From Solirubrobacterales bacterium (lineage in GTDB: Bacteria > Actinomycetota > Thermoleophilia > Solirubrobacterales > Solirubrobacteraceae), in NCBI GenBank assembly GCA_025963965.1, contig JAOPZS010000116.1:1-34364 (forward strand): a stretch of DNA of 34,364 bases, given 5' to 3'. The translations under genes were made by a program, and so were the position numbers. Positions 2,592 to 25,998 of this stretch are shown here, piece by piece (position 1 is the first letter of the stretch; each line of letters opens with the position of its first letter). Below the pieces are notes generated by a model that made no database searches, was not told the DNA's origin, and saw only the letters and a list, made by a program, of their open reading frames with translations.

Positions 2592-4232
2592 ATGAGCAGA
2601 GGCACCCTGTCGTTCGTGGCCCTCGTCTTCGCGCTGGCGCTCGCCGTCGCCCTGCCGACCGCCGCGCTCGCCGGCGAAGCGTCCTACCAGGACGCGGCCA
2701 CCGGCCTCATCGCGCGTGCCCCAGCTGCCCCGCCGGCGGCCGTGCCCTTGCAGAGCTCGCTCACCGCCCGTCCGCGCGGCGCCCGGCGCGTGCACACGAT
2801 TCGGCCCGCAGCGGGCGCGCTGCGCTCGGCGCCGGGCGTCTCCGCGCCGGCCGCCCGCGCGGCCGGCGCCTCGCTGCTCACGAACTTCAACGGCGTCAGC
2901 AGCCGCGACAGCGCTCTGACGAACTTCGGGCTGCAGTTCGAGCCACCCGACCAGGGGCTCTGCGTCGGCAACGGCTTCGTCGTGGAGATGGTCAACTCGG
3001 CCTACACGGTCTACGACCAACGCGGCAACGCCCTCGCGGGACCGTTCAATGTCAACGGTCCGTTCGGGGAAGGCCTGACCGAATTCACGAGCGACCCGCG
3101 CTGCTACTACGAACCGGTCCATCACACGTGGATCGCGATCATCCTCGCGATCGGCAAAGGCGAAGAAAGCTCCTCTCTGGACATCGCCGTCAACACCTCC
3201 GGCGATCCCCGCACCGTCTGGACCGACTACAGGCTCGACACGACCGACACTCCGAAGCACGGCGGCAAGGGCAAGGAATGCCCCTGCTTCGGCGACCAGC
3301 CGAAGCTCGGCATCGACGCCTCCAACCTGTATGTCACGACCGACGAGTTCTCGATCCTCGGTCCGCAGTTCAACGGCGACCAGCTCTACGCCTTCGCGCT
3401 CAAGGACCTCGTCGCCGAAGCCGCAACGGTGCACTTCGCGCACTTCGCGGGGCTGAAGATCGCCGGCGCCCCAGCAAGCTCCGTGGAGCCTGCGCTGACC
3501 AGCGGCTCCGCCCCGGCGGAGTACTTCCTGAACTCCATCGACCCGAGCGAAACGTCGGGCAACACCATCGGCGTGTGGGCGCTCACCGGCGCGAAGAACG
3601 TCGCCAGCGGCGGCAAACCGACGCTGTCGAGCACGGTGCTCCCGTCGGAGCCGTTCGCGCTGCCCGTGCCCGCCGAACAGAAGGGGACCGGGACGGCGAT
3701 CGAAGCCGGCGACGACCGCATGCAGCAGACGCAGTTCATCGGCGGCAGGCTCTGGGGCGAGCTGGACACGAGCGTGCAGATCGCAGGCGAAAGCCAGACC
3801 CGCGACGGGGCCGCGTGGTTCTCCGTCGAACCTTCGCTGCGCCAGGGCGTGCTCGGGCCCAAGACGCGGCTCGCCCAGCAGGGCTACGTCGCCGCGCCGG
3901 GCAGCTTCTTCCTGTACCCGGCCCTGCAGCTGACGCCGAGCGGGCACGGCGCGATGGTCGGCACGCTGACGAGCGCCAAGCGCTTCCCCAGCGCCGCCTA
4001 CGCGACGATCGAACCGGGCGGAGCGATCTTCACGCCGATCGCCGTCGCCGCGGCGGGCACGACGAACTACGACCCCGAAGCCGAACGATGGGGGGACTAC
4101 TCGTGGGCGATCGCCGACCCGGCCGGCGAATCGGTGTGGCTCGCCACCGAGTACGTGCCGCCGAAGTCCAGCCAGACGCCCGACGGATTGCGCGACTGGG
4201 GCACGCGCGTCTTGCAGGTTCCCACCGGCTGA
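2592..4232 (+). CDS. Secreted protein of unknown function, possibly a beta-propeller
   Basis: The 546-residue protein has a strong Shine-Dalgarno (AGGAAGGAG, 7 bases before the ATG) and a classical signal peptide: hydrophobic VALVFALALAVALPTAALA, ending in an AxA cleavage site near residue 27. After an Ala/Pro/Arg-rich linker (about residues 35-95) the mature part begins with LLTNFNGV. It has PPDQGLCVGNGFVVEMVN and many short strand-like segments ending in aromatic or Gly-Asp turns, a look typical of exported beta-propellers. A Cys-rich CPCFGDQPKLG lies near residue 230. No catalytic motif is recognised. It stands alone between the dTMP operon and a small membrane-protein gene. I do not recognise a named family. 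Confidence 0.85.
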   Translation: MSRGTLSFVALVFALALAVALPTAALAGEASYQDAATGLIARAPAAPPAAVPLQSSLTARPRGARRVHTIRPAAGALRSAPGVSAPAARAAGASLLTNFNGVSSRDSALTNFGLQFEPPDQGLCVGNGFVVEMVNSAYTVYDQRGNALAGPFNVNGPFGEGLTEFTSDPRCYYEPVHHTWIAIILAIGKGEESSSLDIAVNTSGDPRTVWTDYRLDTTDTPKHGGKGKECPCFGDQPKLGIDASNLYVTTDEFSILGPQFNGDQLYAFALKDLVAEAATVHFAHFAGLKIAGAPASSVEPALTSGSAPAEYFLNSIDPSETSGNTIGVWALTGAKNVASGGKPTLSSTVLPSEPFALPVPAEQKGTGTAIEAGDDRMQQTQFIGGRLWGELDTSVQIAGESQTRDGAAWFSVEPSLRQGVLGPKTRLAQQGYVAAPGSFFLYPALQLTPSGHGAMVGTLTSAKRFPSAAYATIEPGGAIFTPIAVAAAGTTNYDPEAERWGDYSWAIADPAGESVWLATEYVPPKSSQTPDGLRDWGTRVLQVPTG

Positions 4233-14526: not shown

Positions 14527-15204
14527 TCAGGGACTCAGCAGCAGCTCGTCCATGATGTCGCCCCACGTTTCGACGGCCTGTGCTTCGACGTTCGTGATCT
14601 GGTATTCGAAGCGCCCCGAGTTGCGGGCGAGCGCGCGGCCCTGTGAGCTCTCCAAGCGAGAGAGCCCCGCAGGGATCAGTCCCAGCGCGACCCAGTTCGG
14701 GTAGAACGCCTTGACGAACGACACGGTGCTCGAGGCCGTCGATTTGAAGTGGCTCGCCGCCCACGCCTTGACGTCACCGCACAGGTCCGGGACGGGGAGG
14801 TTGTAGAGCGTCCGCAGCATCGAGGCATAGCCGGCGACAGCGTGGGTGATCGAGGCCTTGCTCCAGCGCAGTCCCGCCACGGCACGCAGGTAGGACTTCA
14901 CCGCGGGACGGTCGGGCCTGCCTGCGGTCAGCACCATCGTGCCGATCACCTCGTTGCTCAGTTCGGTCGACTGCGCGTTCTGCGGCGATTCGGCGGCGGC
15001 GCGGGGACAGTCGCGCCTGACGCTGCTCAGCACGCTCTTGTAGGCCGCGATCGATGAGCCGAGGTGGGCGTGTCCGGCCTTGACCAGCGCGTAGTTCGCG
15101 CGGAGGTACGTTTCGGTCGCCGACGCATCCGAGCCGCTCGCGGCGGCGGGCGCCACCGCAAGCGCCAGCATCGCGCCGACGATCGCCGGAACCCGCTTCA
15201 GCAT
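14527..15204 (-). CDS. Secreted protein of unknown function
   Basis: The 225-residue protein has a signal peptide (basic LKR, then VPAIVGAMLALAVAPAAASG) and a mostly alpha-helical mature part with two cysteines (RRDCPR and PDLCGD) that may pair. It ends 2 bases from the SNF2 stop, convergently. TAGGCT on the minus strand (15216 to 15211) is 6 bases before the ATG, which indicates a leaderless transcript separate from the MFS-ASST gene just upstream on the same strand. No family recognised. Confidence 0.8.
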   Translation of the reverse strand: MLKRVPAIVGAMLALAVAPAAASGSDASATETYLRANYALVKAGHAHLGSSIAAYKSVLSSVRRDCPRAAAESPQNAQSTELSNEVIGTMVLTAGRPDRPAVKSYLRAVAGLRWSKASITHAVAGYASMLRTLYNLPVPDLCGDVKAWAASHFKSTASSTVSFVKAFYPNWVALGLIPAGLSRLESSQGRALARNSGRFEYQITNVEAQAVETWGDIMDELLLSP

Positions 15205-15232: not shown

Positions 15233-18199
15233 CTACGCGCCGGCTGCGAACGGCTTTGAGGTGCCGAGCACGCGCCCGCCGGCGTCGAGCGCCTGAACCT
15301 CGAACTGCGCATGGTCGCCGCTGACCGGGATCGCCGTCTCAAAGCCCCCACGCGCGGCATGTGCCACCGCCGCCGGCGCCGCGGCGCCCGTGCCGGCGAG
15401 CACCCGCCACGAGGCCACCTTGGTCGCGCCGTTCCAGCTGGCGTACACGGTGGTGCCCGCGCCGCTGCGCCGCGCGGCGCCGGCCGGCGCCGTGAGCGGC
15501 AGGCCCGTCCATTGCTGCACGGACGCGCGGTAGGTGAGATCCGGGCCGGGCAGTTCGACTTCGAAGAGCGTCTTGCCCGCGCGGTCGTATTCGGCGAAAT
15601 ACGGTTCCGAGCCGTAACCGGCGAACACGTTGCCGCCGGGGAGCAGCTGCGTGTCGCCCATGTACTCCGACTCGAAGCCATCGGCGCGGCCGTACTCGCT
15701 CACGAGCGTCGCGGTGTGTCGCTGTTCGTCGAGCTTCAGCACCAGGCCGCGCGAGGGAGCCGTCGCACGGACGTAGGTGCCGCCGCCCGTCAGCTGGCAG
15801 CAGTGATCGTCGAACAGGCTGATCGTCGAGTTCGGCCCGAGCCGCGCGTCGTGCTGCCACTGGAACCCTGCCTCCGAGCCGAGCTTGAAGCTCGAGTGCC
15901 GCCCGCCCAGCGTCCACGTGATGTTGCCGCTGGCGATGTCGACGAGGTACACCGCCCACGTGTCGCGCATCGACACGAGGAAGCTCTTGCCGTCCGGCGT
16001 CAGCTGGATCGAGTTCACGTGGTAGGCGTCCCAGGGGAAGCCGTTGGTGGGCAACGTCGCCTGCGCGTCGTTCAGCGGAATGTGGTCGAGGGCATCCCAG
16101 CTGCGCAGCAGCTTGCCGGTTCGCAGGTCGTACTCCTGAACGGCCGAGTCGATCAGCGCGCCGTTGTAGGCGCCGCCGTACTTGGACAGGTCCTTCGGGA
16201 CGTTCTTGTTCGCCGTGACCCAGGCGTGTTCGCCGTCGATCAGCAGCTCGTGCAGCGTGAGCACCCAGCCGCCCGTCGCTTTGAGGTGCGCCACGGGCCG
16301 GTAGTGCTGGTCGACGACCACGTATTCGCCGTATTCGGTTGCGCCCGTGTTAGTGACGATCCCCTGCCACCACGAGAGCGCCGGCTTGCCCTTCCAGGTC
16401 TGCGTGGCGAGGTTCGAGGCCACGTACTTTTCCGGCACCGGCTGGAACCACACGGGCTGCAGGCTGCGGTCGAGGATCAGCGGGCCGCTTTGCCCGATGA
16501 TCGGCGGTTCGTTGAGGTTCAGGAAGTTGGCCGCGAAGACGTACCCGGGTTCGAGCTTCGCCCCCGAGCTGCGGTGCACCACGCGGTAGCGGGGCGGGTG
16601 AAGCGACGGCGCCGTGACGAAGTGCAGCGTGTGGGCTGTCGTGTAGCGACCGAGAGGCGCACCATGGTTGCCGGAGAAGGCAGCGGCGAGCCCGACGAAC
16701 CCCGCCAGCACCAGCGCGATCACGCCTGCCAGACGGCGATCTGCGCCGCGCTGAGCACCCTCGGGGCGGGGGATGGCGAGGAAGGTCAGCACGGCCGCCG
16801 CCGCGGCCAGCCCGGCGCAGATCAGGTACGCCAGCTGAAAGCCGTGCGTCAGCGCCTCCGCGACCTGCTGGCCGTGGCCGATCAGGTCAGTGCTGTGCTG
16901 CGTTGCGAGCGTGATCAGCAGCGCCAGACCGAGGCCGCCGCCGACCTGGCGCGAGGTGTTGACGAGGCCCGACGCGAGGCCGGCCTGTCCCTCCTTGGCT
17001 CCCTGCGTCGCGGCGATCGTCGAGGGCACGATCGACATCGCGATGCCGGCCGCGGTGAGCACGCCGGGAATCACCACGTAGACCAGGGGGCTGCCGCTCG
17101 AGTTGATCTGCGTGAACAGCAGGAGCCCGCCGGTCATCATCGTGAGCCCGCTGCCGAGCACGGCGCGAACGCCGAAGCGCCCGACGAGTTTGCCCGCCCG
17201 CGGCGCGATCAGCAGGATCGCCAGTGTCATCGGCAGGAAGTTCAGGCCGGCGTGCAGCGGGGAGATCCCAAGCACCTGCTGCATGTACAGGGAGCTGATG
17301 AACCACATCGGGAACAGCGCTGCGCTGAACAGCAGCACGATGTTGTTCGCGATCTTGAGCGGCTTCGTCAGCTCCTTGAATGGGATCAGCGGCGCCTTGG
17401 CGATGCGCGTCTCGATCACGCCGAACGCGGCGAGCAGGGCCACGCCGAGGGCGATCGGGCCGAGCGCCTGGAAGGAGCCCCAGCCCTTCAGGCCGCCTTC
17501 GACGACGCCGAAGACGATCAGGATCTGGCCGATCGTGAGCGTCAGGGCCCCCGCCAGGTCGAAGCTGTCGCCGGCCTTCGCGCGTTTGCGCTCGGTGATG
17601 ACCACCCAGCCGACCGCTGCGGCCGCGACGGCGATCGGCGGGTTGATCAGCAGCACCCAGCGCCAGCTGAGCAGTTCGGTGATGACGCCCCCGAACAGAA
17701 CGCCCGCGGCGCCCCCCAGGCCGTTCATCGCGGCCCACGTCGCGATCGCGCGGTTCAGCTGGGCGCCGGGCGCGAAGGACGCCGTGATGATCGCCAGCGA
17801 ACACGCCGCCATCAGCGCGCCCGCCAGGCCCTGCAGCGCCCGTGCGCCGATCAGCATTCCCTGGCTGGCCGCGACGCCGCCGACGAGCGAGGCGATCCCG
17901 AACAGCAACAGCGCCGCGACGAACGTGCGGCGCTGCCCGAAGTGGTCGGCGGCGCGGCCGCCGAGCATCAGGAAGCCCGCGAACGTGATCGCGTAGGCGT
18001 CGACGACCCACTGCAGATCGGGCGAGGAGAAGCCGAGATCCGACTGGATCGAGGGCAGCGCGACGTTGACGATGCTGAGGTCGAGGATGACCATGAACTG
18101 CGCAACGCAGCACACGGCCAGCAGCCACTTCGCTCCCGCTTTGCCGGCCTCCCCCGGCGGCGGCGAGGCGAGCGGCGGCTCTGCCGTTCCGACGCTCAT
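15233..18199 (-). CDS. Fusion of a 14-helix MFS transporter (DHA2 type) with an extracytoplasmic arylsulfotransferase domain
   Basis: One uninterrupted frame of 988 residues. Residues about 25-480 form a DHA2/EmrB-QacA-like MFS transporter: motif A GGRAADHFGQRR after helix 2, MIGARALQG-like helix 4, and 14 hydrophobic helices in all. After a short basic loop (GAQRGADRRLAG) a fifteenth helix follows (about 490-510, VIALVLAGFVGLAAAF). It would carry the chain outside, where the ASST family acts. Residues about 540-985 are an ASST beta-propeller with the conserved LHE (His650), YHVNS (His727, Asn729), SMRDTW and WQHDAR (His783), then the C-terminal SWNGAT module shared with its neighbours. The N-terminal Ig-like domain of the other ASSTs is absent, replaced by the transporter. 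GGGGAA lies before the ATG. Transport substrate and sulfuryl acceptor are unknown. Confidence 0.93.
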   Translation of the reverse strand: MSVGTAEPPLASPPPGEAGKAGAKWLLAVCCVAQFMVILDLSIVNVALPSIQSDLGFSSPDLQWVVDAYAITFAGFLMLGGRAADHFGQRRTFVAALLLFGIASLVGGVAASQGMLIGARALQGLAGALMAACSLAIITASFAPGAQLNRAIATWAAMNGLGGAAGVLFGGVITELLSWRWVLLINPPIAVAAAAVGWVVITERKRAKAGDSFDLAGALTLTIGQILIVFGVVEGGLKGWGSFQALGPIALGVALLAAFGVIETRIAKAPLIPFKELTKPLKIANNIVLLFSAALFPMWFISSLYMQQVLGISPLHAGLNFLPMTLAILLIAPRAGKLVGRFGVRAVLGSGLTMMTGGLLLFTQINSSGSPLVYVVIPGVLTAAGIAMSIVPSTIAATQGAKEGQAGLASGLVNTSRQVGGGLGLALLITLATQHSTDLIGHGQQVAEALTHGFQLAYLICAGLAAAAAVLTFLAIPRPEGAQRGADRRLAGVIALVLAGFVGLAAAFSGNHGAPLGRYTTAHTLHFVTAPSLHPPRYRVVHRSSGAKLEPGYVFAANFLNLNEPPIIGQSGPLILDRSLQPVWFQPVPEKYVASNLATQTWKGKPALSWWQGIVTNTGATEYGEYVVVDQHYRPVAHLKATGGWVLTLHELLIDGEHAWVTANKNVPKDLSKYGGAYNGALIDSAVQEYDLRTGKLLRSWDALDHIPLNDAQATLPTNGFPWDAYHVNSIQLTPDGKSFLVSMRDTWAVYLVDIASGNITWTLGGRHSSFKLGSEAGFQWQHDARLGPNSTISLFDDHCCQLTGGGTYVRATAPSRGLVLKLDEQRHTATLVSEYGRADGFESEYMGDTQLLPGGNVFAGYGSEPYFAEYDRAGKTLFEVELPGPDLTYRASVQQWTGLPLTAPAGAARRSGAGTTVYASWNGATKVASWRVLAGTGAAAPAAVAHAARGGFETAIPVSGDHAQFEVQALDAGGRVLGTSKPFAAGA

Positions 18200-18503: not shown

Positions 18504-20384
18504 TCATTTCGCCGCCCCGGGACGTGTCAGGGACGCGTAGAAGCCGATCGTCTTGACCGCTGCCGAGCTGCCGAGCACGCGCCCGCCCCTGTCGAGCGCC
18601 TGCACCTTCGCGTAGGCGTACTTCACCGGCAGGATCGTGTCGCTCTCGAAGTCGAGGGCCGGGATCGTCGCCTGCGTGGAGAGCGCGGCTTCGCTCTTGC
18701 CGGCCAGCACCCGCCACGCGGCCACCCCGGTCGCTCCGTTCCAGCTGGCGTGCACGATCGTCTCTTCGCCCGTGTCGTTTTCGCTGGCGAACACGACCGG
18801 CGGGGTCGCGGGCAGGGCGCTCCACGGGTAGCGGAAGGCGCGGTAGAAGGACATGTCATACGGCGTGTGCGCGTCGAACAGCACCGTGCCGTCGGGTGCG
18901 AACTCGGTGATCGCCGGCAGGCCGCCGTAGCCGATCAGGCTGTTGCCGCCTCCCAGCGTCTGCATGTTCCCCTGGCTCGCCGAGAGCAGAGGCGGGTCGG
19001 GATGCACGTAGGAGGCGAGCAGGCGCGCCTGCATCTTCGTGAAGTCGAGCGCGATCCGCAGCCCGCGCGACTGTTTGTGGACCGGCGGGTTGGCGCCGTC
19101 GTCGAACAGCGTGATCTCGGCGTCTCCGAGCATGCGCGCGTCGTGCTGCCAGGCTGTCTGCGTCCCCGGTCCCATCTTGAACGAGCTCTTGCGGCCGCCG
19201 AGCCGCCACAGGATCCGTCCGCTTCCGGCCTGCAGGCGGTAGGACGCCCAGGTGCTGCGCGCGGAGATCACCAGGTCGCCGTTCGGCTGGGGGTCGATCG
19301 AGTTGATGTGGAAGTAGTCCCACGGCGTGGAGTCGCGCGACGCTTCGACTTCGGACTCGCCCGCCGCGACGTGGTCGAGGCTGTGCCATTCCGAGCGCAC
19401 GAGCCCGGTGTTCATGTCGATCTGCTGGATCGCCGTGTCGGTGATCGTGCCGTCCCGCGCCCCCTGCACCCGCGACAGGTCGCAGCGGATCGGGTTGAAC
19501 GCGGTGTTGTAGGAGATCCCGTGGGGGCGGATCTGGAACTCGTGGAGGTCGGCGCGCAGGCCGTTGCCGCCATGGATCCGCTTGATCACCTGGTAGCGGT
19601 CGTTCATCACGAGGTCCTGGCCCTGGCCGAAGCCGTACTGCAGCACCCGGCCCTCCCACCAGGTCAGCACGCGCTGTCCTTCGTAGCTCTGGACGTTGAG
19701 GTCCTCTGCGGTCTGGGCGCCGAGGAGTTCTCCGAACCACACCAGCCGGCCCTTCGGTGTGTAGATCAGCGGCCCGTACTGCCCGGGGCCGGGACCGTTG
19801 GTCGTGAAGATGTCGCCGGCCGCCGGGTCGCGGTCGGCTCCGGTCACGGTCAGGATCGGCGCCCGCAGGTCGGGCCGGGTGTAGAAGCTCTGGTAGTCGG
19901 CGGGGGCCGCCGGGGGGTTGTGGAAGTCGGGACTGGCGGCGGTCGGGTACGGCGTGTCGACGAGGAAGCCGAACGAGACCGGCTTGCCGGCGATCGTCGC
20001 GCTCACGCTGACCCGCTCGCCCGGCACGAACGGGGCGTTCGGCAGGAAGCTCGCGCCGTCGCCCTGGGAGTAGCCACGAACGCTCCCCGCATGGGGACCG
20101 CTGCGCGCGCCGCGCACCGAGATCGAGGTGATCGCCGAGGCGGGCGCGCCCAGGAAGCTGATCTGCGTGTGAGGGTTCGCCGAATCCGTCTCCGGGGCGG
20201 GCGAGACGTTCACGGCCGTGCCTGCCAGCGAGGCGCTGTGCTCGACCGTGCTCGGCAGGCACGCGGGCGAGGCGCTCGCCGAGCTCGAGCCGCCGATCTT
20301 CAGGCTCGCCGAGCCGAGCACGATCGCCAGCACGCCCCAGACGAGCACGGCGACCCCCAGGATGATGAGCACGTAGCGGCGCAT
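18504..20384 (-). CDS. Arylsulfotransferase family protein, membrane-anchored
   Basis: ASST enzymes move a sulfuryl group from one phenolic ester to another phenol outside the cytoplasm, without PAPS. From ATG at 20384 the protein is 626 residues, starting RRYVLIILGVAVLVWGVLA, which lacks a clear cleavage site and probably anchors the protein. An Ig-like N-domain follows (VSPAPETDSANPHTQISFLG to GERVSVSA). Then comes the propeller with DLHE (His281), HINS (His359, Asn361), SARSTW (Arg376) and WQHDAR (His414). These fit the His/Asn/Arg set known from E. coli AssT, in which one His is transiently sulfurylated. The C-terminus is the SWNGAT module. An upstream ATG at 20453 would add a charged 23-residue extension. 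It is divergent from the next ASST. Confidence 0.88.
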   Translation of the reverse strand: MRRYVLIILGVAVLVWGVLAIVLGSASLKIGGSSSASASPACLPSTVEHSASLAGTAVNVSPAPETDSANPHTQISFLGAPASAITSISVRGARSGPHAGSVRGYSQGDGASFLPNAPFVPGERVSVSATIAGKPVSFGFLVDTPYPTAASPDFHNPPAAPADYQSFYTRPDLRAPILTVTGADRDPAAGDIFTTNGPGPGQYGPLIYTPKGRLVWFGELLGAQTAEDLNVQSYEGQRVLTWWEGRVLQYGFGQGQDLVMNDRYQVIKRIHGGNGLRADLHEFQIRPHGISYNTAFNPIRCDLSRVQGARDGTITDTAIQQIDMNTGLVRSEWHSLDHVAAGESEVEASRDSTPWDYFHINSIDPQPNGDLVISARSTWASYRLQAGSGRILWRLGGRKSSFKMGPGTQTAWQHDARMLGDAEITLFDDGANPPVHKQSRGLRIALDFTKMQARLLASYVHPDPPLLSASQGNMQTLGGGNSLIGYGGLPAITEFAPDGTVLFDAHTPYDMSFYRAFRYPWSALPATPPVVFASENDTGEETIVHASWNGATGVAAWRVLAGKSEAALSTQATIPALDFESDTILPVKYAYAKVQALDRGGRVLGSSAAVKTIGFYASLTRPGAAK

Positions 20385-22356: not shown

Positions 22357-24239
22357 TTCGCGCCCGCAGCCTGATCCTGCTGGGCGCGCTGGCGCTGCTG
22401 GTCCTGATCCCGGCCGGGCGCGTCAACCGCTCGGTCCCGCGGCTCACGCTGAGCGGCGCGCACTCCAAGCTCGCCCGTTCCGCCGCATCGGCGGCCTCCG
22501 CCTCGTGCGTGCCCGACACGCTCGATCGCTCAGCGCTGCTCGCCGGCGCCGTGACCGTCTCGCCGCTTCCCGGCAGCCGCGATGCGTCGCCGCTCACGCA
22601 GATCAGCCTGCTCGGCGTACCGGCCGGGGAGCTGTCGGGGATCAGCGTCACGGGCTCGCGCAGCGCTCGACACAGCGGGCGCGTGCTGCCCTACTCGCAG
22701 GGCGACGGTGCTAGCTTCGTGCCCGCCCGCCCGTTCAAGGCCGGCGAGCACGTGACGGTGCGGGCGACGATCACCGCGGCCGGTCGCACGACGCCGCTGG
22801 CCTACAGCTTCGACATCGCCGTGCCGGACACCTTCGGCGAAGCCGGCGGCAGCTCGACGCCGGCCCCGAAACCGCGCGACTACCAGAGCTTCCACTCGCG
22901 CCCGGACCTCAAGCCGCCGACGATCACGGTCACCGCGCACGCCTCCGGCGCCTCGCCCGGCGACGTGCTGCTGGCGCCCTACTCCGGGCCGGGCCAGTAC
23001 GGGCCGATGATCCTCGATGAAAACGGGGCGCTGCTCTGGTTCAAGCCGCTCTCGCCGGCCGGCGCGCGGGCCGCGGATCTGAGCGTGCAGAGCTATGAGG
23101 GCAAACAGGTCCTGGCCTGGTGGCAGGACCCGCTGGTCACGGCGACCAGCCGCAAGGCGGGGATCGTGATCGCCGACAGCGCCTACCACCAGATCGCGGT
23201 GGTGCGTGCCGGCAACGGCTATCAGCCGGACCTGCACGAGTTCAAGATCACGCCGCGAGGCACCGCGCTGATCACGGTCTACGACGGGGTCCTCTGCAAC
23301 CTCTCGGCGCTCGGCGGCCCGGCCGACGGCGCAGTCGCGGACACCCTGATCCAGGAAGTCGACCTGAAAACGGGCCTCGTCCGCTACGAGTGGCACAGCC
23401 TCGACCACGTCGCGCTGAGCGAGTCCTACGTGTCGCCTAGGCCGGGTAGCCGCAAGGAACCGTTCGACTACTTCCACGTCAACTCGATCGACGTGACCCG
23501 CACGGGCGATCTGCTGATCGACGCGCGCAACACCTGGGCGGCCTACGACACGGACCCGCGCACCGGCAAGGTCCGCTGGCGGCTGGGCGGGCGGCGCAGC
23601 AGCTTCAAGCTCGGGCCCGGCACGGTCACGGCCTACCAGCACGACGCCCGCGAACAGCCGGACGGCAGGATCACGTTCTTCGACAACGGCGCCACGCCGA
23701 AGGTTCACCCGCAGTCGCGCGTGATCGAACTCGCGCTCGACACGCGCGCGATGACGGCGACGCTGCTGCGGCGCGACGAGCATCGCCCGTCGCTCGTCGC
23801 CGGCAGCCAGGGCAACATGCAGGTCCTGCCCGGCGGGAACTGGCTCGTCGGCTGGGGGCAGTCGCCCTACATCAGCGAATTCGCGCCGTCCGGACAGCTG
23901 CTGTTCGACGCCCACATGCCGTCGACGTACCAGTCCTACCGCGCCTACCGACAGGCCTGGAGCGGGCAGCCGACGACGCCGCCGGCGATCGCGCTGCAGC
24001 GCGCCGGGGCGCGCGCGACGGTCTATGCGAGCTGGAACGGAGCAAGCACCGTTACCTCCTGGCGCGTGCTGTCGGGTCCCTCGCCTGCTTCGCTGGCGCC
24101 CGTCGGCGCCGCGCCGCGATCGGGCTTCGAGACGGCGATCACGCTCGCCGCGGCTCCCGCGCGCGGGAGCTGGCTGAGCGTGCAGGCGCTCAGCGCTACG
24201 GGCGCCGTGCTCGGAACCTCCCCGGCCCGGAGGGGCTGA
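22353..24239 (+). CDS. Arylsulfotransferase family protein with a probable non-AUG (CTG) start
   Basis: From GTG at 22509 the protein would begin at VPDTL and have no export signal. The frame is open upstream and encodes IRARSLILLGALALLVLIPAGR, a clear signal/anchor helix, then a Ser/Ala linker and SCVPD as in the ASST at 26015. In this upstream stretch there is no ATG, GTG or TTG. The best start is CTG at 22353, which overlaps the preceding stop as CTGA, like the ATGA/GTGA couplings elsewhere; ATT at 22356 is the alternative. That gives 628 residues. ASST residues: DLHE (His295), HVNS (His375), DARNTW, YQHDAR (His430). The C-terminal module is SWNGASTVTSWRVLSG. The last 44 bases overlap the convergent sulfatase gene. 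Confidence 0.85.
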   Translation: MIRARSLILLGALALLVLIPAGRVNRSVPRLTLSGAHSKLARSAASAASASCVPDTLDRSALLAGAVTVSPLPGSRDASPLTQISLLGVPAGELSGISVTGSRSARHSGRVLPYSQGDGASFVPARPFKAGEHVTVRATITAAGRTTPLAYSFDIAVPDTFGEAGGSSTPAPKPRDYQSFHSRPDLKPPTITVTAHASGASPGDVLLAPYSGPGQYGPMILDENGALLWFKPLSPAGARAADLSVQSYEGKQVLAWWQDPLVTATSRKAGIVIADSAYHQIAVVRAGNGYQPDLHEFKITPRGTALITVYDGVLCNLSALGGPADGAVADTLIQEVDLKTGLVRYEWHSLDHVALSESYVSPRPGSRKEPFDYFHVNSIDVTRTGDLLIDARNTWAAYDTDPRTGKVRWRLGGRRSSFKLGPGTVTAYQHDAREQPDGRITFFDNGATPKVHPQSRVIELALDTRAMTATLLRRDEHRPSLVAGSQGNMQVLPGGNWLVGWGQSPYISEFAPSGQLLFDAHMPSTYQSYRAYRQAWSGQPTTPPAIALQRAGARATVYASWNGASTVTSWRVLSGPSPASLAPVGAAPRSGFETAITLAAAPARGSWLSVQALSATGAVLGTSPARRG

Positions 24240-25998
24240 CGCTGGGCTGCTCGCGGGGCGCCGGGCCGCCCTGCCCCCGCGCGACGTCGCCGACGATGCT
24301 TTCGACCTTCTCCTTGCGCCTGCCGGTCGCCTTCGCGGCGGCTGCTCGCGCTGTGGAGAAGTAGTCGGCGAAGCCGCGCCCGTGAGCGGCCTGCAGCCGT
24401 TCGGGCAGCGGCCGGCGCAGCTCGTGCACGAACGCTTTCTTCATCTGCTCGCGCATCGATGACTCGAGCGCCGTGTGTTCGGCCGCGTTGTGCAGCTCGA
24501 GTCGCCCGCTCTCGGTCGAGTAGTCGTAGAGCTCGGCTTCCTGGCCTTCGCTGGCCGGCTGTATCCCGGCTTCGCCCCAGTGCGAGTAGAGCGCGAACTT
24601 CGCCTGAGCGGTGCGCATCGCGACGACGTGCAGCGGCGCCTCCGCGGCGTACTGCTCGCTCGCGAACTCGGTGACGGTCTCATCGGTGGCGTGCAGCACG
24701 TATTCGCGCCCGGGGGCTTCGGGGTCGGCGAGGATCGCCGCCAGGTCGAGACGGTCGGCGAGGTGCGCGTAGTGGGCCTCGCTGCGCCATTGGTTCGAGC
24801 CGGTCGCGAGCGTCAGCAGCAGCGGTGCGAGGTCGACGCTCGAGCTGAGCTGCGTGCGCACGGTCTGCGGCGAGGCGGCCAGCTTCCCCCGCATGTCCTT
24901 GACGATCAGCGGCACGCGGATCGCCTCCTCGTAGGCGCCGCCCCCCTTGCCGCGCAGGCCGTGCGATGCGCCGTACTCGCCGTGGTCGGAGGTGAACACC
25001 ACGATCGTGTTGGCTGCCACCTCGGGGCGGCTGTTGAGGGTCTGAAGGACGCTGCCGACGTGACGGTCGACCTCGCGCTGGAGCTTCGCGTACAGGTCGA
25101 GGAAGGCGAGCCAGATCGGGGCGACTTCAGGCCCCGTGAACGGCACAGGCCCGAACGACGCGGCGGCGGTTTCCTGCAGCGAGCGCTGCAGGCGCGGCTT
25201 GTTGCGTTCGATCATCCGTTCGGGGGTCTCGAAGTTGGGCGGCAGCCTGCGCACCGTGCGCCGCGCCGTCGTCTCGGCCGCGACACGGTCGCTCCACACG
25301 TACCACCAGGCGATGTCGTGCGGGTTGACGAACGAGACGGTCGTGCACCACGGCTCAGAGCCGCCCGCTTCCTTGAACCACCCGCGGAAGTGCCTGGCGA
25401 TCTCCGGATCCCTGTGCCAGCCCTGCCCCGGGCCGCCGTCGGGGGAGGGGTAGACGCCTCCGGCGAAGCCGTAGCGCTCCAGCGCTTCTTCGCCGAGCGC
25501 CGGCGTCCAGTGGTTGTCGTGGTGGGTCACGTGCCACTTGCCGAGCCAGCGGGTGTGGTAGCCGTGCTCGCGCAGCATCGTCCCGTAGGTCGGAAAGCCC
25601 GGGTCCAGCGTGCTGCCGCCCGTGATCATGCAGCCGGTCTGATGGGTGTAGAGACCCGTCAGCATCGCCGCCCGCGAGGGACTGCAGTCGTTGGAGGCCG
25701 TGTAGTGGTGGTCGAAGGAGACGGCGCCCTGGCGCAGCCGGCTCAGGTTGGGCGGCAGGGCCATGCCCATCGGGGTCGCCGAGAACCACTGCGGGTAGCG
25801 CAGCTGGTCGACCACGATGACGAGGATGTTGGGCCGTTTCGGGGCCGGTTTGTGCGCCGTCCGCGCCGGCTTTGCGGTCGTGTTGGCGCCCGGCTCGCCG
25901 TCTGCTTCCGCTAGCGCCTTGATGCCCAGTCCGGCACCGGCGAGCAGGCCTCCGGCGACCGCTCCGCGCTTTAGGAACGTGCGCCGATCCACTCTCAT
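24196..25998 (-). CDS. Tat-exported formylglycine-type sulfatase
   Basis: This 600-residue member of the sulfatase/alkaline phosphatase superfamily hydrolyses sulfate esters outside the cytoplasm. The N-terminus has a twin-arginine signal (DRRTFLKRG) and a hydrophobic VAGGLLAGAGLGIKALA. The enzyme domain starts RPNILVIVVDQLR (metal-binding Asp). Cys105 in CSPSRAAMLTG fits CxPSR, the site converted to formylglycine before export. GKWH and SDHGEYGASH supply further active-site residues. The start is ATG at 25998, or ATG at 26016 six codons upstream. The formylglycine-generating enzyme is not in the window. The gene lies antisense between two ASST genes: its 3' end overlaps one by 44 bases and its start is 16 bases from the other. 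Confidence 0.95.
   Translation of the reverse strand: MRVDRRTFLKRGAVAGGLLAGAGLGIKALAEADGEPGANTTAKPARTAHKPAPKRPNILVIVVDQLRYPQWFSATPMGMALPPNLSRLRQGAVSFDHHYTASNDCSPSRAAMLTGLYTHQTGCMITGGSTLDPGFPTYGTMLREHGYHTRWLGKWHVTHHDNHWTPALGEEALERYGFAGGVYPSPDGGPGQGWHRDPEIARHFRGWFKEAGGSEPWCTTVSFVNPHDIAWWYVWSDRVAAETTARRTVRRLPPNFETPERMIERNKPRLQRSLQETAAASFGPVPFTGPEVAPIWLAFLDLYAKLQREVDRHVGSVLQTLNSRPEVAANTIVVFTSDHGEYGASHGLRGKGGGAYEEAIRVPLIVKDMRGKLAASPQTVRTQLSSSVDLAPLLLTLATGSNQWRSEAHYAHLADRLDLAAILADPEAPGREYVLHATDETVTEFASEQYAAEAPLHVVAMRTAQAKFALYSHWGEAGIQPASEGQEAELYDYSTESGRLELHNAAEHTALESSMREQMKKAFVHELRRPLPERLQAAHGRGFADYFSTARAAAAKATGRRKEKVESIVGDVARGQGGPAPREQPSVSPSGPGRFRARRP

Follow-up and report, generated by a model that had tools for sequence, protein, structure and literature searches.

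The window, a 34,364-nucleotide stretch of DNA from a member of the Solirubrobacterales, carries on its minus strand a gene in which an MFS transporter and an arylsulfotransferase (ASST) are encoded as one polypeptide, P0001, surrounded by free ASST genes and a sulfatase gene (Table 1). The original prediction had described a single frame of 988 residues holding both parts, leaving its strand unstated, and the open reading frame (ORF) call and Pfam confirm it: MFS_1 matches residues 31-424 (E = 5e-54; 183.9 bits against a cut-off of 33.4), Arylsulfotran_2 (PF14269) residues 600-881 (E = 3.5e-44; 151.9 bits against a cut-off of 27), and Arylsulfotrans residues 683-882 (E = 2e-16). In many relatives, a member of the P0002 clade is the gene immediately upstream of the fusion, and the clade also occurs beside the unfused MFS genes.

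Table 1. Features of the fusion gene and its neighbours in the window
Feature	Position	Strand	Basis and remarks
MFS-ASST fusion gene P0001	15233..18199	-	988 aa from ATG; ORF call, Pfam
MFS part, helices 1-14, residues 18-475, DHA2 type	16775..18148	-	Profiles, model
Fifteenth helix, residues 484-509	16673..16750	-	AlphaFold2 model, alignment
ASST part, residues about 527-983	15251..16621	-	Pfam; nearest solved structure Cpz4 (9kf4, 9kf6)
H783 codon, equivalent of E. coli AssT H436 (transiently sulfurylated His)	15851..15853	-	Alignment
DDHCC signature, residues 797-801, 14 residues after H783	15797..15811	-	Alignment
Free ASST P0002, upstream of fusion, same strand	18504..20384	-	Pfam; alternative ORF start 20453
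Free ASST P0003	20548..22356	+	Pfam
Free ASST P0004	22509..24239	+	Pfam
Sulfatase (PF00884), CSPSR motif, twin-arginine-like start	24196..25992	-	Syntenic in several relatives
Free ASST P0005	25817..27850	+	Pfam; start uncertain, 25817 or 26129

The fusion in one frame is present in 37 assemblies, that of the window and 36 others. In a separate genome scan, the MFS and ASST parts share one frame at 36 of 37 loci, including L095, whose MFS part aligns well over only about 150 residues, and the remaining locus (L089) is truncated at a contig start; chance, misassembly, and a shift of frame at the junction are thus ruled out. The fused MFS parts form one clade, the sister group of which consists of three unfused MFS genes, each situated between ASST genes in the same kind of locus (3/3), with genes for a PF17784 sulfotransferase and a type III polyketide synthase (PKS) following in one of them (G016). 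Homologues are therefore not always split, although a split relative does exist as the sister group, and the sequence relationships support what was probably a single fusion event. As an actinobacterial trait at large the fusion can be dismissed, given that none of 395 other genomes in an even sample of the phylum matched it at E 1e-150, with two candidates scored per genome, against four in the genome scan. Its carriers are a group of uncultured soil bacteria. Long frames also surround other ASST genes, as in G074 (1036 aa) and G196 (958 aa), but the gene calls there are only 502 and 499 aa, and for this reason a long frame by itself was not counted as evidence. At the four ASST loci of genus g22, the ASST gene adjoins and diverges from an MFS gene in three, whereas in the fourth it lies some genes away. 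No described MFS-ASST fusion was found among the papers listed by literature searches covering few subscription journals, in keeping with the original prediction, which knew of no example.

In the AlphaFold2 model of P0001 (mean pLDDT 77; helices grouped by hand into 14 plus one), the 14 helices of the MFS half are followed by the fifteenth and then by a beta-propeller, and hydropathy alone recovers 14 of the 15. The TIGR00711 profile (EmrB subfamily) scores below its cut-off (209.9 against 230.2 bits), and hence the MFS half is not classed as EmrB proper. The loop preceding helix 15 has four K/R and two D/E, which under the positive-inside rule places the loop inside and consequently the ASST part outside. 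The earlier proposal that 14 helices and an added fifteenth put the ASST outside is supported by the model and by this loop charge, and the predicted 15-helix topology is coherent. The model places a large part of residues 510-598 poorly and is therefore silent on how a substrate might be handed over from one half to the other.

The ASST half contains the motifs named in the original prediction, LHE (H650), HVNS (H727 and N729), and WQHDAR (H783). H650, H727, N729, R745, and H783 align with H252, H356, N358, R374, and H436 of E. coli AssT (numbered as the precursor minus 27), which are key residues given in the available text of PMC10932419. All five are invariant across the 37 alignment rows of fusions, and in the comparison with AssT they are kept in 27/27 fused and 48/48 free rows; no conserved Thr is found at or near the position aligned with T501 of AssT. 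The alignment to Cpz4, the nearest solved structure, starts at residue 522 of the fusion but at residue 159 of P0003, and the fusion indeed does without the additional domain that the neighbouring ASSTs carry at their N-terminus, as had been noticed at the outset. That this domain was replaced by the transporter, as then suggested, is doubtful because the free ASST L053, which belongs to the same clade and has what by eye is a signal-peptide-like start, lacks this domain too.

Within 5 kb of the 37 intact fusion loci, another ASST is encoded in 27, a PF17784 sulfotransferase in 12, an APS kinase in 5, and a type III PKS in 4, while in six none of the partners sought is present in the flank covered (L077, L083, L085, L086, L095, and L101). 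At seven loci the PF17784 gene immediately precedes the fusion and has its orientation; none of these seven has a type III PKS in the covered flank, and in three (L096, L099, and L102) the gene touches or overlaps the fusion by our own gene calls. Only the L096 enzyme was modelled, and its best fold matches are the sulfotransferases SgdX2 (8y9p; 38% identity) and Cpz8 (9kf1, 9kf2; 37-39% identity). A TetR regulator was considered as the gene preceding distant fusions and was rejected, Pfam identifying the product as Sulfotransfer_4. In the flanks covered for 20 control loci of close unfused DHA2 homologues, some of these flanks being short, no gene for an ASST, PF17784, APS kinase, or type III PKS occurs (0/20).

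At the genome level, PF17784 occurs in 51 of 201 genomes, with one to four copies in each; uncorrected for kinship, 25 of the 27 genomes whose fusion is full or cut by a contig end have it, versus 26 of 174 without a fusion, and outside genera g1 and g2 3/3 fusion genomes versus 22/170 without the fusion, likewise uncorrected. Of the 52 PF17784 loci read, 21 also encode a type III PKS, and in six of these (L040 and L114-L118; four checked by Pfam) the two are in one frame. Pks11, which is named an alpha-pyrone synthase, has Cys, HPGG, and GN blocks that are conserved in one such type III PKS, that of G007. Of the 27 fusion genomes, 19 have a type III PKS match and eight lack one, among them the window's own assembly (89.7% complete), which has no PF02797 match.

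According to the accessible part of a review (PMC13426309), ASSTs take aryl sulfates rather than PAPS as donors. In caprazamycin biosynthesis, as far as described in the available portions of PMC4257720 and PMC6731281, Cpz8 sulfates a triketide pyrone, and Cpz4 then uses the sulfated pyrone. We consider it about an even chance that the fusion represents the export-and-discharge half of a comparable two-step sulfation pathway. First, a cytosolic, PAPS-dependent, Cpz8-like PF17784 sulfotransferase would sulfate a phenolic or pyrone carrier, which in many relatives may come from the type III PKS, with PAPS supplied by way of the APS kinase. The aryl sulfate would then leave the cell through the 14-helix DHA2 part. 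On the outer side, where helix 15 would hold it, the ASST part would accept the sulfuryl group at H783 and transfer it to an acceptor that is secreted or lies on the cell surface. By conjecture, this exported donor may also serve the free ASSTs nearby in sulfating further acceptors.

The original prediction envisaged a pump that exports a phenolic compound and sulfurylates it on exit. Its core, a coupling of export and sulfation, is likely, whereas a plain phenol sulfurylated on its way out is not supported: because ASSTs use aryl sulfates, and because a Cpz8-like enzyme, APS kinase, and type III PKS are encoded beside some fusions, the phenol appears to receive its sulfate in the cytosol and to leave the cell as the donor of the sulfuryl group. 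Export of an unsulfated phenol, which the ASST half would sulfurylate with an external aryl-sulfate donor, is nonetheless favoured by the 25 of 37 fusion loci with no PF17784 within 5 kb, by the drug-exporting nature of DHA2 relatives, and by the many phenols that ASSTs accept, as reported in the part of PMC13426309 available; it leaves the donor unexplained, while genes for a Cpz8-like sulfotransferase, an APS kinase, and a type III PKS adjoin the fusion at some loci, and is in our judgement unlikely. The same neighbour genes are compatible with the aryl sulfate, a sulfated type III PKS product, being itself the end product, exported by the MFS half and trimmed, exchanged, or doubled in its sulfate by the ASST half. 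Type III PKS products that carry sulfate and have PAPS genes devoted to them do exist, for example, the adipostatins (PMC12135136, in its accessible text). However, the 27 fusion genomes each have 3 to 10 PF14269 matches in all, with a median of 6, and the further ASSTs would then have no explanation; this account is rather improbable.

In the MFS half, D40, R82, D85, R90, R120, and R417, which we take to be charged residues typical of working pumps, are invariant among the fusions. Relative to the outgroup, no conserved basic residue has been gained inside any helix, R204 being a gain in a loop, and the basic positions 52, 89, and 199 as well as the acidic positions 144, 147, 236, and 405 have been lost; a basic-residue signature for anion export was sought in the MFS helices and is absent. 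These changes give no pointer to a new substrate class and, with a linker modelled at low confidence, would suit an MFS half that is a mere membrane anchor or an unrelated pump, which would hold the ASST to the membrane while the two halves work uncoupled, but the invariant charged residues and the unfused position of the sister MFS between ASST genes speak against this reading, which is decidedly unlikely. Cleavage by signal peptidase after helix 15, giving a pump and an ASST that are made together and work as two proteins, is very improbable: helix 15 does align with the signal-peptide-like N-terminal stretch of L053, and many rows carry small residues such as AFAG after it, but the site is not uniform over the 37 rows, the window's own protein having AFSG.

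That the two genes are joined strongly hints at a single compound as the object of both transport and sulfuryl transfer. ASSTs do without PAPS and, as far as is known, many of them act outside the cytosol, so that a donor must reach them there. A 2026 review (PMC13426309), in the text available, describes the physiological role of bacterial ASSTs as poorly understood because their natural substrates are unidentified. The fusion and its neighbours name a concrete route for the donor in testable genes, from a cytosolic Cpz8-like sulfotransferase through an exporter to a Cpz4-like ASST, and, if true, this would answer where such outside ASSTs obtain their sulfate. More tentatively, and with somewhat less than an even chance of being right, the single polypeptide may be a transmembrane sulfuryl relay, taking an aryl-sulfate carrier that was charged in the cytosol out of the cell and unloading it there, in which case, together with the surrounding ASSTs, it would constitute a general bacterial route for sulfating surface and extracellular molecules without external PAPS.

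Among known systems, the MFS half shares its fold with the DHA2 14-helix pumps EfpA (8ufd, 8x6x, 9bii), its nearest solved structures (TM-score 0.85-0.87 by EfpA length), and QacA (7y58; TM-score 0.79), neither of which, to our knowledge, carries an enzyme domain, their chain lengths being in agreement. AssT of E. coli CFT073 has the five key residues aligned and conserved in the fused ASST, but is distant from it (hhalign E 9e-8) and unfused. No PF17784 enzyme, the family whose L096 member resembles Cpz8 and SgdX2, is encoded in the window; its genome has a single copy, which a separate contig (C58) carries close to an ASST other than those discussed here. Given that this assembly lacks a type III PKS match, the window is classed not as a member of the caprazamycin pathway but only as working alike. 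Cpz4 (9kf4, 9kf6), the PAPS-independent ASST of caprazamycin biosynthesis, is, among solved structures, the one most similar to the fused ASST, both in sequence (E 3e-84) and in fold (36% identity across 474 columns of the alignment), and the two have the same His motifs. The solved Cpz4 chain of 472 residues is without a transporter and, in the alignment, without the Cys-Cys of the DDHCC signature. The Cpz4 and Cpz8 entries of the PDB are named here after their Foldseek titles, and no paper was found for 9kf4.

The fusion of an MFS pump to an arylsulfate sulfotransferase (ASST) is, with near certainty, real. The open frame joining the two, as put forward in the original prediction, is borne out: Pfam places MFS_1 at residues 31-424 and Arylsulfotran_2 at 600-881 in the same frame, both well over cut-off, and 36 of the 37 loci found by a pattern-based contig scan with the ASST part as query are one-frame fusions, the other (L089) starting inside the ASST. 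NCBIfam puts the first half among the DHA2 drug pumps, with the EmrB model scoring under its cut-off. An AlphaFold2 model built from 37 sequences (mean pLDDT 77, pTM 0.72) has a 14-helix MFS part followed by helix 15 (484-509) and a beta-propeller, with low confidence over much of residues 510-598. Foldseek gave Cpz4 of caprazamycin biosynthesis as its top match, covering the ASST half, and EfpA as the top transporter match. Both halves are of known families and their chemistry has a known model; no mention of a joint MFS-ASST protein was found in the literature searched.

Features of the window and of related loci
Feature	Position	Strand	Remarks
MFS-ASST fusion gene	window 15233-18199	minus	988 residues
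DDHCC loop	window 15797-15811		vicinal Cys-Cys in fused ASST
Protein downstream of fusion	window 14527-15204		225 aa, no Pfam match; relatives near in L030, L031, L034, L036
Sulfatase	window 24196-25992		CSPSR motif, twin-arginine-like start, among ASST genes; syntenic in L030, L031, L034, L055
Open frame	window 2592-4232		546 aa, no match in Pfam or NCBIfam
Near-identical ASST copies, two contigs of own genome	L061:1-1263, L062:956-2740		either recent duplicate or assembly repeat
PF17784-type III PKS frames	L040:9141-10583, L114:8676-10496, L115:8633-10528, L116:8624-10315		Pfam-checked
PF17784-type III PKS frames	L117:6669-8354, L118:8816-10573		custom profiles

Among 201 genomes (the window's own and 200 relatives, with at most four candidates scored per genome), the intact one-frame fusion occurs in 23, own included; it is cut by a contig end in G146, and in G001, G006, and G156 it is cut where the fused state cannot be judged. 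In 18 of the 24 genomes from the window's genus the gene is fused, in 2 it is cut, in 3 a comparable locus carries it unfused, and one (G004) has no close match among the candidates scored. All 22 fused relatives are within the 36 scanned fusions, one of which (L095) aligns poorly across most of the MFS, so that the two sets together give 37 intact fusions, counting the window. The 36 are labeled mostly Solirubrobacterales or Solirubrobacteraceae, followed by unspecified Actinobacteria, Actinomycetes, or Actinomycetota, with one each of Acidimicrobiales, Acidimicrobiaceae, Nocardiopsaceae, Streptosporangiales, and plain 'bacterium'. Of 395 further genomes drawn evenly from across the phylum, none yielded a fusion at E 1e-150.

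All 38 fused rows fall into a single clade (100) in a maximum-likelihood tree of 71 MFS domains, built by quick search with SH-aLRT support alone and containing some very long outgroup branches; the contig-cut row L058, which may or may not be fused, belongs to this clade too. The sister of the clade (joint node 100) consists of three unfused MFS genes from the window's genus (G011, G012, and G016), and the remaining DHA2 pumps fall outside this group. A single fusion event is the simplest reading. Because the unfused sister genes sit between ASST genes, which group with P0002 and P0003, two of the window's free ASSTs, the pump probably stood beside ASST genes first and was fused later. It is possible that these three genomes secondarily lost the ASST from a fusion, but this costs one extra change. 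Since the fused clade takes in other orders too, whereas the unfused trio belongs to the window's genus, horizontal transfer or old paralogy has to be invoked. Four loci were read in genus g22 (L166-L169): in three an ASST adjoins a divergent MFS gene, and in L168 the two lie some genes apart.

A tree of 75 ASST rows, taken from the window and 38 selected loci, likewise unites the fused domains (100), with the free ASST L053 nested among them at an unresolved position. Since helix 15 aligns with the N-terminus of L053, which resembles a signal peptide, the helix may itself derive from one. H252, H356, N358, R374, and H436 of E. coli AssT, from the key-residue list in PMC10932419, align by profile, with the numbering verified, to H650, H727, N729, R745, and H783, which are invariant both in the 37-row fusion alignment and across the ASST rows compared (27 fused, 48 free); T501 lacks a conserved counterpart. 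A ping-pong mechanism through a sulfurylated His is reported for ASSTs in PMC13426309. Both Cys of the DDHCC loop, a possible disulfide or metal site, occur in 27/27 fused rows versus 3/48 free ones (L053, and one each in L059 and L060).

PF17784, a sulfotransferase family, is found in 25/27 genomes with a full or cut fusion versus 26/174 without (kinship ignored), the two exceptions being G005 (66% complete) and G010 (72% complete). With genera g1 and g2 left out, the figures are 3/3 versus 22/170 (kinship ignored); two of these three fusions are cut at a contig end, and that of G156 is not provable. With neighbor genes called by a custom codon-preference caller and partners by custom profiles anchored by Pfam, PF17784 lies immediately upstream on the same strand in 7/37 fusion loci, touching or overlapping the fusion gene in L096, L099, and L102; no type III PKS was found in the available flank of these seven. 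Within 5 kb of the fusion, PF17784 occurs in 12 loci, APS kinase in 5, type III PKS in 4, and another ASST in 27, with none of these in 6/37, many flanks being short; all four are absent from the available flank of 20 loci of close unfused DHA2 homologues. The modeled L096 PF17784 enzyme (mean pLDDT 87) best matches SgdX2 and Cpz8. Type III PKS is also present in 21 of the 52 PF17784 loci read, and in six of them the PKS and PF17784 share one frame, beside a second PF17784 gene, making another fusion within the proposed pathway; Pks11 is the nearest solved relative, by sequence, of one such PKS.

A relay is proposed in which a charged aryl sulfate would be exported by the MFS half and then discharged outside by the ASST half. 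We give the relay as a whole about an even chance, because type III PKS matches are missing from 8/27 fusion genomes, own included; PF17784 is beyond 5 kb or absent in 25/37 fusion loci, the own genome's single copy being on another contig (C58) near a different ASST; and the MFS helices display no charge signature of anion export. The four free ASSTs of the window may share the same donor, and it is a conjecture that the sulfatase between them takes the sulfate off again. The export-then-discharge proposal follows from caprazamycin, in which, according to PMC4257720 and PMC6731281, PAPS-dependent Cpz8 sulfates a triketide pyrone that then donates sulfate to Cpz4; compared with that system, what the fusion adds is a transporter joined to its Cpz4-like enzyme.
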